Shown piece by piece: positions 7,453-12,012 of a stretch of DNA of 64,000 bases. The stretch covers positions 2,976,001 through 3,040,000 of the forward strand of contig NZ_CP042997.1 of NCBI RefSeq assembly GCF_008087625.1. The letters are read 5' to 3'. This stretch comes from Aquisphaera giovannonii (lineage in GTDB: Bacteria; Planctomycetota; Planctomycetia; Isosphaerales; Isosphaeraceae). Each line of letters opens with the position of its first letter. The first letter of the stretch is position 1. A program made the translations under genes and the position numbers. The notes under the pieces are model-generated. The model did not search any database. It had not been told where the DNA came from and was given only the letters and a program-made list of their open reading frames with translations.

Positions 7453-8820
7453 ATGGGACGCGTCGCAACGGATTCTCCACGCACGGGATACCTCGCCGCG
7501 GCGGCCATGCTCGTCCTGGCGGTCCTCTTCCCGATCGGCCTCATGGTGTTCGATCCCGACTTGATGTTCCGCCGAGGGTGGGAGCAGTACGTCGGGACTG
7601 CCATCTACTTCTGGGCCGTCTTCACGCTCGCCCGGGAGCTCCGCTGGCTCTGGAGCAATGAGCAGGCCTTCGCCGACGCCCCCAGGCTCCTCCAGTACAT
7701 CGGAGGCATGCTTCGGAAGGCTCGAAGGCCGGGATCCGGCGACGCCGAACCGCAGGCGGATCCCGCCGCCCTGCTGGCCGTCGCGATCAACCAGGACGGG
7801 CGGATCCTGCCCGTCCGCGTTCGACGGCTTGTGGGCTATGTCCGCGAGTCCAGCACCCCTTCCGCCACGCAGCTGATGGAGGTGAACCGCGAGACGTCGG
7901 GCCTGGACCAGGAGGAGATGGCCGGGCGGTTCACCCTCACGCGTTACATCCTCTATCTCCTGCCCGTCATCGGGTTCATCGGCACCGTCGAGGGGATCTC
8001 GAAGGCGCTCATGAAGATCAGCGTCGTCCTCCCTCTGGTCAAGGACCTGGACGCGTTCCTGAGCAACCTGACGGGCGTCACCTCCGCGCTCCAGGTTGCC
8101 TTCGACAGCACCCTGCTGGCCCTCTTCCTCAGCGCCGCGCTGATGCTCGTGCAGACGCTCGTCTATCGCAAGTCGGAGAGCCTGCTGGGCAGGGTGGACG
8201 GCTGGGTCGTCGAGCACGTCCTGCCGGGGGTGGGGACGAATGACCCGTTCGCGGACAGGCTGGACGAGGCGATCGGCCCCCACCTCGACCGGCTGCGAAG
8301 CGAGCTGGCGACGATCCTCGCGCCGGCCGCCCAGGCCCTGCGCTCGGAGGCGGAGAAAATCGGCCGGAGCCTCGAGTCGCCGGTGGCCCAGCTCGCCAGC
8401 TCGATGGAGCGTCTCCCGGCGTCGATCGCGGCTTTCCAGCAGGGCGCCGCGTCCATCGGCCGGGTGGGCGACGACCTGAGGTCGCTGGAAGAGCTCGGAG
8501 ACGCCACCCGCCGGAGCGCGGCGTCGCTGTCCAGGATCGAGGCGGCGCTTGCCCAGTCGGACACGTCGGATCCGCAGCTCGAGGAGATCCGCCGCGGGCT
8601 GGACCGTGCGACGCTCGCCATCGAGGGCCTCTCCAGCTCGTGGGCCGCGGCGTACGAGAAGTCCAGCCGGACCACCCAGGATCAGCTCGCGAAGACCCTG
8701 AACAGCCTCAAGGACGCGCTGGAGTTGATCAGCGTGAGCATGGAGCAGGGCAATTCGCTCTACCGGAACATCGTCAAGAAGATGTTCGACGAGAGGGCGG
8801 GCGGCTCCCGGGCGGCCTGA
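7453..8820 (+). CDS. MotA/TolQ/ExbB-type proton channel subunit with long C-terminal helical tail
   Basis: A 455-residue inner-membrane protein. Two hydrophobic segments lie near residues 12-31 and 42-62. After a roughly 100-residue cytoplasmic stretch come the two signature segments: one containing LLPVIGFIGTVEGISKAL (about 175-195), the TolQ/MotA-like glycine motif, and one containing AFDSTLLALFLSAALMLVQT (about 217-238). The last 190 residues are rich in Glu, Arg, Ala, Leu and Ser with heptad-like spacing, predicting a cytoplasmic coiled coil. This family forms proton-driven stator channels with ExbD, TolR or MotB partners. The next gene, 67 bp downstream, encodes a single-pass protein that may be that partner. 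GGAGGGAG precedes the ATG. Confidence 0.8.
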   Translation: MGRVATDSPRTGYLAAAAMLVLAVLFPIGLMVFDPDLMFRRGWEQYVGTAIYFWAVFTLARELRWLWSNEQAFADAPRLLQYIGGMLRKARRPGSGDAEPQADPAALLAVAINQDGRILPVRVRRLVGYVRESSTPSATQLMEVNRETSGLDQEEMAGRFTLTRYILYLLPVIGFIGTVEGISKALMKISVVLPLVKDLDAFLSNLTGVTSALQVAFDSTLLALFLSAALMLVQTLVYRKSESLLGRVDGWVVEHVLPGVGTNDPFADRLDEAIGPHLDRLRSELATILAPAAQALRSEAEKIGRSLESPVAQLASSMERLPASIAAFQQGAASIGRVGDDLRSLEELGDATRRSAASLSRIEAALAQSDTSDPQLEEIRRGLDRATLAIEGLSSSWAAAYEKSSRTTQDQLAKTLNSLKDALELISVSMEQGNSLYRNIVKKMFDERAGGSRAA

Positions 8821-8887
8821 GCGATCCCGGCGAGACTGCGCGGCGGATCGGTCGGGATACGAAACGGGGCGAACCGAGGGCTGAGCG

Positions 8888-9652
8888 ATGCGACGGAATC
8901 GACGGGGCGGGGGCCACGGCCTGGAGTTCGGGGGCTCCGGAGAGGATTCGTTCGTGGCGGTCGTCGTCACCAAGCTGACCGGCGCCTTGCTGTTCATCCT
9001 GGTGTTGACCATGGTCATCATGGCGCTTCTTCCCAAGGCCGTGGACAGCATGCCGTCGGGTTCCAGGCGGGATGGCGCGGCCGAAGTCGACCGGCAGCCG
9101 CTCGCCATCGTCACGCCCGAGGCGCTCCCGGAGGCGATCGCGGGGCGCCCCTACGCCGTGGCACTCGCCGCGGCCGGCGGCGGCGGGACGTTGAAGTGGT
9201 CGATCGACGGCGACCTCCCCGAAGGGCTTTCCTTCGACGCGGCCTCCGGAGTCCTCAAGGGGACGCCGAAGCGGGGCACGCCCCAACCGCTCGCCCTCTC
9301 GATCCGGGTGACCGACGGCGACGAGGTCGCGACCCAGGCGACCCGGCTGCTCGTCTACCAGAGCGATCGTCCGCTCTCGACTCCCGCCTGGTGGAAGCCG
9401 GGCCTTCCCCCCGTGCTCTGGCGGCAATGGCTCGATCACGGGGTCGGCTTCCTCCTCCTCTGGCTCATCTACCTGGTCGGCATGAATGCCCTGGCCGGGA
9501 TGGAGAGGGGCCGGGGGGAAGGCCAGGTCTCGCTGGAACCGGGCGGCACCCTGCTCGTCACCAGGCGCTTCTCGGCATACAGGATCGTGATGCGCCTGGC
9601 GACCTTGTCCGCAACGGCGGGCTTGGCGGCCTGGCTGTGGATCGCTCGCTGA
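8888..9652 (+). CDS. Membrane protein with putative-Ig (He_PIG) domain; candidate partner of the MotA/TolQ-like subunit
   Basis: A 254-residue protein. A basic N-terminus is followed by E19-D20 and one hydrophobic segment (about 23-48), then an extracytoplasmic domain of about 110 residues. In that domain LKWSIDGDLPEGLSFD and SGVLKGTPKRGT are the hallmark of putative-Ig (He_PIG, cadherin-like) folds. A second hydrophobic segment (HGVGFLLLWLIYLVGMNAL, near 177-195) and a third near the C-terminus follow. Its position after a TolQ/MotA-like gene, its N-terminal single-span layout and an acidic residue at the membrane edge resemble ExbD/TolR/MotB subunits. No ExbD, OmpA or peptidoglycan-binding domain is visible. 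GAGGG precedes the ATG. The pairing is inferred. Confidence 0.65.
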   Translation: MRRNRRGGGHGLEFGGSGEDSFVAVVVTKLTGALLFILVLTMVIMALLPKAVDSMPSGSRRDGAAEVDRQPLAIVTPEALPEAIAGRPYAVALAAAGGGGTLKWSIDGDLPEGLSFDAASGVLKGTPKRGTPQPLALSIRVTDGDEVATQATRLLVYQSDRPLSTPAWWKPGLPPVLWRQWLDHGVGFLLLWLIYLVGMNALAGMERGRGEGQVSLEPGGTLLVTRRFSAYRIVMRLATLSATAGLAAWLWIAR

Positions 9653-9851: not shown

Positions 9852-11156
9852 ATGTCTCGCAGCCGATTGATGCTGGTCCTCGCGGGGCTGATCGTCGCCC
9901 AGGCGGCCGATACGGTCAGCTCCTACGCGCAGCCGCCGGGCCGCGGAGGCCGCGGGGCCCGTGGCGCCGCCCCGGCGGGCAATCAGAACGGGTTCAACGT
10001 CCCCCTGACCGGCCTCATCGTTCTCGCCCAGAACGACTATGTGCAGGAAGAGCTGAAGATCACCGATGATCAGAAGCAATCCCTGAAGAAGCTGGCCGAC
10101 GACCAGCAGAACCGCAACCGCGACTCGATGCAGCGGCTCCGCCAGCAGACAGACCAGGCGACGAGTAAGGCGGCCCAGGATGCTCAGGCCATGGCCCTCC
10201 AGCACGAGATGATGGCCCTTGCGAACTCCGCGAACAATACGGGTTACGGGGGCGGCCTGGCCGGACAAATCAACAGCTACTCGGGCTTCGGCTACTCGAA
10301 TTACGGGGCGAATCAGGTCGACCCCGCCGCGCTCCAGCAAGCCGCGGCCATGCAGGGGAGGATGGCGGCCAATGCCGTCCAGTCCGAGAGCTGGCAGATG
10401 ATGCGGCAGTCCTTCCTGCGGATGGAACAGGAAGCCGACCGGGCGGTCGCGCGAGTGCTCAACAAGGAGCAGATGAAGAGGCTCCGCGAGATCCGCCTCC
10501 AGGCGGACGGCGCCGCCTCGGTCCTCCGCGACGACGTGGCCCAGAATATCGAGCTGGATCCCGAACAGGCCGGCCAGATACAGCAGGTACTGCGGGAGAC
10601 CGGCCAGAAGAAGCGCGAGGTGGAGCGGTTGGCATCCCAGTCTTTGCGCGGGATCGCCCCCCAGTCCGGCGGTTCCAACAGGGGGGGTGGGAGACGCGGT
10701 CAGGGTCAGAGCAACGCCCCGGCCCCTCCCGACGATGCCTCGCTCCAGAAGGCACTCGAGAAACCCGACGTGAAGGCCAAGGTGCAGGAGGCGAAGAAGG
10801 CGCTCACCCAGGTTCGCGATCGCGAGTACTCGCAGGTCTTCAAGAGCCTGGACCGTCGCCAGGTGTCCTCGTTCAAGAAATTGCTCGGCAAGCCCTTCGA
10901 CGTCGACGCCATGTCGAATCCGCTCTTCCGGGCCCTGGCCCAGGCGAACGCCAAGTCGCAGGAGTCCAAGGACAAGGCGAAGCCCGCGACGAAGTCCGGT
11001 TCGTCGAAAGATGGGGCGGATGATGCGGCCGCGGACTCCGGTGCGTCGTCGGACGACCCGAAGAAGCCCGCCACGACAAGACGCCCTTCGCCCTCCCAGA
11101 GATCGAGGCGAGGCACCGGCCAGCAAACGTCCGGCGACGATTCGTCGCCGAATTGA
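9852..11156 (+). CDS. Secreted helical protein with LTxxQ-like repeats
   Basis: A 434-residue exported protein whose signal peptide ends near SSYAQ, followed by a Gly/Arg-rich linker. The rest is alpha-helical and Gln/Lys/Arg-rich, with repeated x-T/D-x-x-Q motifs reminiscent of Spy/CpxP periplasmic chaperones: ITDDQKQSLKKLADDQQ, LNKEQMKRLREIRLQ, LDPEQAGQIQQVL and LDRRQVSSFKKLLG. The C-terminal 80 residues are low-complexity Lys/Ser/Asp/Ala. The ATG at 9852 has GAGGAG upstream and starts the signal peptide; an in-frame GTG at 9801 is rejected. A TAGAAT element at 9757 may be its -10 box. The function is unknown. It shares repeat style with the following gene. Confidence 0.72.
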   Translation: MSRSRLMLVLAGLIVAQAADTVSSYAQPPGRGGRGARGAAPAGNQNGFNVPLTGLIVLAQNDYVQEELKITDDQKQSLKKLADDQQNRNRDSMQRLRQQTDQATSKAAQDAQAMALQHEMMALANSANNTGYGGGLAGQINSYSGFGYSNYGANQVDPAALQQAAAMQGRMAANAVQSESWQMMRQSFLRMEQEADRAVARVLNKEQMKRLREIRLQADGAASVLRDDVAQNIELDPEQAGQIQQVLRETGQKKREVERLASQSLRGIAPQSGGSNRGGGRRGQGQSNAPAPPDDASLQKALEKPDVKAKVQEAKKALTQVRDREYSQVFKSLDRRQVSSFKKLLGKPFDVDAMSNPLFRALAQANAKSQESKDKAKPATKSGSSKDGADDAAADSGASSDDPKKPATTRRPSPSQRSRRGTGQQTSGDDSSPN

Positions 11157-11340
11157 GCTCCTCACGCGGCGGATTTCTCCGAAAGGCCGGCCGCGACGGT
11201 GTCGGGGCCCGCAAGCTTGGCCTTCCCCGATGCCGCGTTCCCCCGTATAAGCAAGCCTCATCGCCGGCCGCCGGCCCTTCTCGCAGGGGACGGCGGCCGT
11301 TTCGCTTGGGGCTGTGCGGCCATTGGGAGGGAGCCCGGAG

Positions 11341-12012
11341 ATGGATCACCGTCGGATCGGATTGCGGGCCTTGGTCCTGGGCGCCGCGATCCTCGAGCTG
11401 TCGTCGGCGACGCCGGCCCGCGCCGAGGATTGGAGCCTTCCGGACAGCCGGATCGGCACGCGGACGGCCCCTTTGCTCCTCCTATCAAGGGCGGACGTGC
11501 AGGCGGAACTGAGGCTCGGAGGGGAGCAGGTCGCCGGCCTGAGGACGATCATCGCCGACCTCACCCGCCGGGGGCTTGCCCTTCGCGGCAAGACAGGCCC
11601 CGCCGTGGTCGTCGAACGCCGCGCCATCGACCAGGCCCAGCTCGACTGGCTGGGTGAGAACCTCAGCCGCAACCAGCTCGACCGGCTCGAGCAGCTCGAG
11701 ATCCAGTGGGAAGGCCCGGGTGCGATGCTCAGCCGGCCCCGGGTCGCCGAATACCTGAGGCTCACGGATGAGCAGAGGCAATCCCTCGCGAAGGTCATCG
11801 CCGAGCGTAACACCGCCCTGGCCCGCGACCCGGCATCCGCCGGGAAGGAAAGCGCCAGCTTCCACGGCCGGATCATGGCGAGCCTCTCCGCCTCGCAGCA
11901 AGAGCTCTGGTATCGGCTCCTGGGAACTCCGCTCGCATTTCACCAGCAACCCCGGGCGGCGACCCGCGATGACGCGACGCAGAGGGCCGGACATACGACG
12001 GAGCCGCGTTGA
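11341..12012 (+). CDS. Secreted protein with LTxxQ-like helical motifs
   Basis: A 223-residue exported protein with a signal peptide cleaved near TPARAED. The mature part is helical with motifs like those of its upstream neighbour: LGGEQVAGLRTIIADL, LSRNQLDRLEQLEIQ, LTDEQRQSLAKVIAER and LSASQQELWYRLLG. The spacing fits a small helical bundle like Spy/CpxP. The ATG at 11341 carries GGGAG upstream and begins the signal peptide. Together with the preceding gene this forms a pair of related but diverged exported proteins 184 bp apart. A chaperone or envelope-stress role is possible but only inferred from motif style. Confidence 0.68.
   Translation: MDHRRIGLRALVLGAAILELSSATPARAEDWSLPDSRIGTRTAPLLLLSRADVQAELRLGGEQVAGLRTIIADLTRRGLALRGKTGPAVVVERRAIDQAQLDWLGENLSRNQLDRLEQLEIQWEGPGAMLSRPRVAEYLRLTDEQRQSLAKVIAERNTALARDPASAGKESASFHGRIMASLSASQQELWYRLLGTPLAFHQQPRAATRDDATQRAGHTTEPR

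Follow-up and report, generated by a model that had tools for sequence, protein, structure and literature searches.

An Ig-domain protein as candidate axle of a proposed charge-swapped MotA/TolQ-type motor in Isosphaeraceae

How would a MotA/TolQ-type ring work with an axle from which the usual ion-binding aspartate is missing? The question is raised by two neighbouring genes, P0001 and P0002, in a 64,000-nucleotide window of the Aquisphaera giovannonii genome (contig NZ_CP042997.1, positions 2,976,001 to 3,040,000), the window being the whole stretch of DNA analysed. The genome (G000) is that of a planctomycete and measures 10.5 Mb. Both genes lie on the + strand, and 67 bp separate the P0001 stop codon from the P0002 ATG. 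A preliminary description of this DNA had paired the channel protein with the immunoglobulin (Ig)-like membrane protein and placed the ion-binding acid at E19-D20 of P0002, overlooking three charges that are central here: K29 in the axle helix, and E180 and D218 in the ring. With a probability of about 55%, we read the pair as a 5:2-type, charge-swapped motor derived from planctomycete A-B1-B2 motors, in which a ring gene (A) is followed by two axle-type genes (B1 and B2). The features of the pair, by window position and strand, are as follows.

7453..8820, + strand: P0001, ring (A) subunit of the MotA/TolQ/ExbB family, 455 amino acids, with a four-helix membrane core and a cytoplasmic tail.
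7984..7992, + strand: T178-V179-E180 codons in transmembrane helix 3 (TM3) of P0001, the canonical polar-ring Thr followed by E180, the acid gained in Isosphaeraceae.
8104..8112, + strand: D218-S219-T220 codons in TM4 of P0001; D218 is common to relatives and T220 is a ring Thr.
8245..8799, + strand: cytoplasmic helical tail of P0001, approximately residues 265-449 (about 190 residues), its C-terminal part well conserved.
8888..9652, + strand: P0002, proposed axle (B) subunit, 254 amino acids, made up of a membrane helix at the N-terminus, a He_PIG Ig domain and a pair of helices at the C-terminus.
8936..9034, + strand: S17-P49 codons of P0002, an ultraconserved transpore-type helix with A24 at the place of the stator Asp and K29 within the helix.
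9101..9367, + strand: He_PIG Ig-like domain of P0002, approximately residues 72-160, proposed periplasmic head.
9416..9649, + strand: C-terminal helices of P0002, 177-212 and 220-253, for which a return to the membrane, outside the ring, is proposed.

Domain structure of the two proteins

P0001 belongs to the MotA/TolQ family of ring proteins and carries a long helical tail. It matches PF01618 (MotA_ExbB) in Pfam at 28.1 bits against a cut-off of 22.9, and its AlphaFold2 model is all-helical (predicted local distance difference test (pLDDT) 73.9, predicted template modelling score (pTM) 0.55), with helices at 9-33, 43-91, 161-197 and 199-260 and then a tail up to residue 449. Because P0001 and its alignment, compared by sequence with solved structures, returned essentially coiled coils and no MotA/TolQ core, folds were compared instead. 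The closest structures are TolQ/ExbB chains, with VIA Z up to 12.9 (values near 13 being in the range where the tool cautions for helical bundles) and a root-mean-square deviation of 3.6 over 204 residues. The first 19 rows of the structural-match list are TolQ, ExbB or MotA throughout, and Foldseek ranks the TolQ/ExbB/MotA family top, weakly (E 9e-3). Domain match and model fold together bear out the earlier view of a four-segment TolQ/MotA-like protein with a helical tail.

P0002 is likewise built as first described, with an N-terminal helix, an Ig domain and two further segments. PF05345 (He_PIG) scores 39.6 bits against a Pfam cut-off of 24 and is the sole Pfam domain found at E<=1, with no ExbD, MotB_plug or OmpA-type domain; an Ig head does stand in place of a peptidoglycan-binding one. 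The model (pLDDT 79.8, pTM 0.43) has three helices, at 18-54, 177-212 and 220-253, and between the first two an Ig fold spanning about 72-160 (pLDDT about 96); its closest solved folds are bacterial Ig modules, for example SraP (4m02), and 4nzj. Both models are single chains, made with 31 (P0001) and 35 (P0002) family sequences as input. A hydropathy scan (19-residue mean >1.6) picks out, in P0001, only the first and last core helices and, in P0002, only segments one and two of three, so that support for the other membrane segments comes from the models and the family match; 177-212 is backed by hydropathy and 220-253 by the model alone.

Co-occurrence of the pair in Isosphaeraceae

P0001 and P0002 are very likely partners. 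Throughout the family (Isosphaeraceae, whose named members include Aquisphaera, Paludisphaera and Singulisphaera), P0001 was found in 43 of 45 genomes and full-length P0002 in as many; the two genomes without P0001, G008 and G015, are also the two without full-length P0002, and the P0002 matches in G008 are to the Ig domain only. These sole pair-less genomes are 96% (G008) and 83% (G015) complete. In 34 of the 43 genomes the two genes run in the same direction with 22-410 bp between them; in three they run in the same direction 2.3-5.9 kb apart, in four they are on opposite strands and 1.9-14.9 kb apart, and in two on different contigs. Shared presence, shared absence and adjacency uphold the earlier choice of the Ig protein as the channel's partner, and the pair is kept together across the family.

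Outside the family, the P0002 N-terminus had no match at E<=0.01 in 252 other genomes of the class, and the two matching genomes in a phylum-wide sample of 392 are both Isosphaeraceae. A P0001 pattern scan over one genome per species, which reaches no further than close relatives, returned 14 loci, all from planctomycetes. Synonymous variation of codons under an unchanged protein shows that the genes are real and the constraint is at the protein level. Two loci have irregular ring genes: a truncated second ring-gene start lies about 2.5 kb upstream of an intact pair (L107:7036-7758), and one ring gene runs in two overlapping frames, perhaps through a frameshift or an assembly error (L132:5655-7132).

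Conserved charges and the lost axle aspartate

The most conserved stretches of the two proteins are the proposed axle helix of P0002 and the proposed pore wall, TM3-TM4, of P0001. Among the 43 family sequences, 49 of the 78 TM3-TM4 columns (158-235) are invariant versus 24 of 377 in other columns; T178, D218, S219, T220 and the surrounding motifs are invariant, the ring residues T178 and T220 in 43/43, and the tail end is well kept. In P0002, D20-L38 forms 19 consecutive residues invariant in 43/43, the longest invariant run in 20,000 shuffles of its columns being 8, and homologues fall to as little as 43% identity to the window's copy. Within this helix K29 is present and A24 is Ala in every sequence, and residues 21-49 contain no acid.

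What the helix descends from is suggested by remoter relatives. Of 297 genomes of the class, 263, among them the family's 43, hold homologues by a P0001 profile search (E<=1e-5), and 60 remote ring loci were sampled from the top of this list over many families, three of them second systems in Isosphaeraceae genomes. Two different axle-type genes (B1 and B2) lie downstream of the ring gene within the examined stretch in 38 of the 60, B1 only in nine, B2 only in five, two B2-like genes in two, two B1-like genes in one and none in five; some stretches stop at contig edges, and L251 is counted among the last group although two Asp-bearing axle-type genes adjoin it. B1 proteins mostly read FPFL[SA], without Asp, and B2 proteins mostly DS[FL]LD, with Asp; a motor of this kind could therefore contain a single Asp for each pair of axles. 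An hhalign comparison relates B1 to B2 (P 5e-8), and two B1 and two B2 proteins scanned with Pfam, and three of these four with NCBIfam, match no ExbD model. The arrangement of a ring gene followed by two related axle genes comes from the loci L194-L213 and L218-L257, which are mostly of other planctomycete families; at L199:9037-12136 both axle genes read SFLDILACTVGAL, that is, Asp in both.

By sequence comparison, the first helix of P0002 resembles these planctomycete axle helices more than it does the other open reading frames (ORFs) examined. A hidden Markov model of the P0002 N-terminus, run against 4,944 ORFs from the relatives' loci and five paralogue loci of the window's genome, gave 10 matches, nine of them among the 44 B2 ORFs; the hypergeometric value of 1.5e-18 overstates this, because B2 proteins are related to one another. 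In a plain BLOSUM62 alignment of the helix, all 14 best ORFs were of B1/B2 type (that of L251 judged by eye), and the hhalign score of P0002 with B2 was 18.1 versus at most 14.1 across 85 control windows. In the alignments that reach this part, F22-V23-A24 pairs with F-L-D in B2 or with F-L-A in B1. P0002 thus has Ala at the place of the ion-binding Asp of B2, and a one-residue insertion between A24 and G32 sets K29 opposite an Asn of B2 or a neighbour of it.

The ring has changed as well. E180, two residues after the TM3 ring Thr, is Glu in 43/43 family sequences, and the same place in the 60 relatives holds Ile (31), Leu (15), Met (9), Val (3), Gln (1) or Arg (1), with zero acids; three ExbB paralogues in the window's genome have Tyr, Val and Trp. 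When the cores of the family and the relatives are compared, E180 is the sole acid gained within membrane segments, whereas the helix ends of the model place the other gained charges (E147, R159, K197, D200 and R247) in flanks or loops. D218 precedes the TM4 ring Thr by two residues and is Asp or Glu in 56/60 relatives; it is therefore old, and we dropped it as part of the novelty. In a tree of 106 core sequences the family forms one clade (100/100) nested with 28 relatives (100/100), and the ExbB paralogues fall outside; L252, an A-type sequence with no B recognised in its stretch, joins the family clade on a very long branch, a join that may be false. Because the P0001 clade is nested inside the A family, the charge swap is derived. 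As the alignments and tree have it, a single lineage appears to have lost the axle Asp and gained both an axle Lys and a ring Glu.

A proposed charge-swapped motor

From these features we infer the stoichiometry, the contact of K29 with E180 and D218, ion flow, rotation and cargo of a P0001-P0002 motor. Five copies of P0001 would form the ring and the N-terminal helices of two copies of P0002 the axle. In this helix Ala (A24) has taken the place of the Asp, and a buried Lys, K29, is present. TM3 runs outward and TM4 inward in the MotA/TolQ superfamily. With the two helices antiparallel, E180 after T178 and D218 before T220 would come to about one height, just periplasmic of the Thr ring. K29 lies about five residues periplasmic of the lost Asp place, so the three charges plausibly share one layer. 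Protons or another cation would bind to and leave the ring carboxylates E180 and D218, and K29 would serve as the counter-charge, pairing successively with the deprotonated carboxylates in the way that Arg9 of GldM pairs with Glu49 of GldL. The role of the Ig head and of the additional pair of helices might be to hold the axle or to transmit force to partners in the periplasm, for which the LTxxQ-like proteins encoded downstream are possible candidates, and the P0001 tail would form a cytoplasmic rod.

Several points weigh against this reading. Single P0002-B2 matches are weak (E 0.13-1.8), the hhalign comparison with B2 has P 5e-4 and a probability of 31%, and that with B1 scores 10.7, no better than controls. 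Owing to the insertion, the B2 counterpart of K29 is uncertain by one residue. K29 may be closer to the cytoplasmic surface than we take it to be, a ring Thr and a residue two places away do not share a helix face, and D20, also invariant, could be the ion binder. The swap occurred in one clade only, so the joint appearance of E180 and K29 is a single event and not a correlation. Nothing in the axles compared corresponds to the C-terminal helices of P0002, and A and B are non-adjacent in seven of 43 genomes and on different contigs in two more.

Among other explanations, the best survivor, which we consider unlikely, is a retired motor, a complex that has stopped conducting ions and acts as a scaffold or sensor in the membrane, kept together by a permanent Lys-Glu salt bridge. 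The residue essential to Asp-axle motors is indeed gone, and a salt bridge could be static. Yet the invariant T178, S219, T220 and D218, the motifs around them and the kept tail end seem beyond a scaffold's needs, and GldLM shows such a polarity to be workable (PMC8986121 and PMC12239597).

Next, and improbable in our judgement, comes a conventional polarity, in which P0002 would be a normal axle whose ion-binding acid, D20 (with E19), has been displaced by one helical turn. D20 is invariant (43/43), sits one helical turn below A24 and is in the same helix as the hydrophobic stretch; E19-D20 do come immediately ahead of that stretch, as had been described, and the model places both within the one helix. 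However, D20 aligns with the first Asp of DS[FL]LD, four residues before the ion-binding Asp of B2 and extra to it, and the place of the latter is A24. E19 is itself Ala in 1/43. E19/D20 as the ion-binding acid is thus not supported, and a conventional polarity accounts for neither K29 nor E180.

At longer odds, an Asp-bearing axle could be encoded elsewhere, with P0002 as an Asp-less, B1-like member of a three-subunit motor. Relatives do have two B genes, one Asp-less (both in 38/60), and F-x-A-V is common to P0002 and some B1 helices. Against this, 42 of the 45 family genomes have no B2 match; in G034 and G026 the matches adjoin second A genes whose residue at the position of E180 is neutral, and that in G019 is weak. 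No B1 match was found in any of the 45 at E<=0.01, and the pair's neighbourhood showed no conserved membrane protein that could be a third subunit. In the window's genome, the only one searched for ExbD and MotB, every ExbD gene over the cut-off adjoins one of four other ExbB genes, and MotB_plug has no match. We also rejected two candidates there: an orphan ExbD away from any ExbB (8641231), which is below the cut-off and reads as a soluble secreted protein, and a MotB-type partner, of which none was found. Within the family no standard ExbD or MotB gene was seen linked to the channel, where a linked ExbD would have told against the preliminary description; an Asp-bearing B2 adjoins its remote relatives, and the two B2 proteins scanned match no ExbD model.

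That P0002 lies outside the pore, the genes being mere neighbours or the protein sitting on the ring exterior, is very improbable: the genes are separated in 9/43 genomes, but co-presence and co-absence are perfect and the helix, axle-like, is the protein's most conserved stretch.

Neighbouring genes

Two secreted proteins follow the pair.

9852..11156, + strand: secreted LTxxQ-like protein, a recurrent downstream neighbour and possible periplasmic partner (PF07813 below cut-off).
11314..12012, + strand: another secreted protein, in which LTxxQ-like repeats are visible by eye; its link to the A gene persists where B is encoded elsewhere.

Flanking LTxxQ-like and FG-GAP proteins had been suggested as clients of the machine, and the first half of the suggestion stands. 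The first LTxxQ-like protein has a homologue in 26 of 44 other loci and the second, which has no Pfam match, in 25 of 44, also at loci where B lies elsewhere (L111-L113, L115). The FG-GAP protein recurs in only 9/44 other loci and was dropped as a regular client. Elsewhere in the window's genome, a divergent MotA/ExbB-like protein with no ExbD match nearby (L133:9114-12330) precedes a 750-residue protein that, judged by eye, has a terpene-cyclase-like repeat.

Significance

We tentatively suggest, at somewhat less than even odds, a second origin of the charge-inverted motor, independent of GldLM and from an Asp-axle ancestor, in which the ion carboxylates would have moved from axle to ring, the axle would have acquired a deep Lys and the head would have given way to an Ig domain tied back to the membrane. 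GldL has diverged too far for its relation to MotA to be clear, whereas P0001 is a clear MotA/TolQ homologue with an apparent exchange of polarity. Asp-axle relatives occur in the same class, a few in the same genomes, which permits an evolutionary before-and-after comparison. A small set of point mutations could show on which subunit the ion has to be carried, and whether a base can do the work of an acid on the axle. For Isosphaeraceae, the pair would add a nearly universal envelope machine.

Comparison with known motors

To our knowledge, well-studied 5:2 motors other than GldLM carry the ion-binding acid on the axle. Among the open-access papers listed by literature searches, none was seen on a He_PIG axle or a Lys-axle MotA/TolQ motor of planctomycetes. 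P0001 shares the PF01618 ring, the fold and the Thr ring with MotAB, TolQR and ExbBD, which differ in having an Asp on the axle and peptidoglycan-binding or ExbD-type heads. In TolQR, as PMC12215075 describes it, Asp23 of TolR is close to T145 and T178 of TolQ, that is, an axle Asp by a Thr ring. ZorAB also has a ring protein with a long tail rod (PMC11890865) but, unlike P0002, keeps its axle Asp. Zorya itself we set aside: the P0001-ZorA match is weak (best E 0.012), P0002 has no ZorB match, and none of seven neighbours scanned is a defence gene. The TolQ-linked TPH-vWA proteins likewise join an axle helix to a non-canonical periplasmic domain without ExbD, whereas their axles are reported to keep the Asp and bear vWA instead of Ig (PMC12204202).

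Neither P0001 nor P0002 matches the GldL/GldM family models of NCBIfam, which include GldL TIGR03513 and, we presume, a GldM model. The invariant ring-helix acids E180 and D218 and the axle base K29 are nonetheless what the GldLM pattern requires. In GldLM/PorLM, the gliding and type 9 secretion motor of Bacteroidota, a ring helix likewise carries an acid and the axle a base: PMC8986121 reports GldL Glu49 as essential and GldM E31 as dispensable, and PMC12239597 sets GldM Arg 9 against GldL Glu 49 in simulations. The GldLM ring protein has a long cytoplasmic tail, as does P0001, and in the same source GldLM is described as having no obvious sequence homology to MotAB (PMC9389320). Unlike P0001, GldL has two membrane helices, TMH1 and TMH2, and GldM Arg9 stands ahead of its helix (peptide L15-L38) whereas K29 of P0002 is inside its own (for GldL and GldM, PMC8986121).

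With the A-B1-B2 motors the likeness is one of ancestry: P0001 is nested in the A family, the D218 motif and Thr ring are common to both, and the P0002 helix resembles B1 and B2. They differ in having two B genes to the one of the P0002 system, which lacks the axle Asp and has K29 and the ring E180, and their axles are long and coiled-coil-like where P0002 has an Ig head and two extra helices. Thus the system nearest to the P0001-P0002 pair in its logic is GldLM, while the planctomycete A-B1-B2 motors are its nearest kin by descent.

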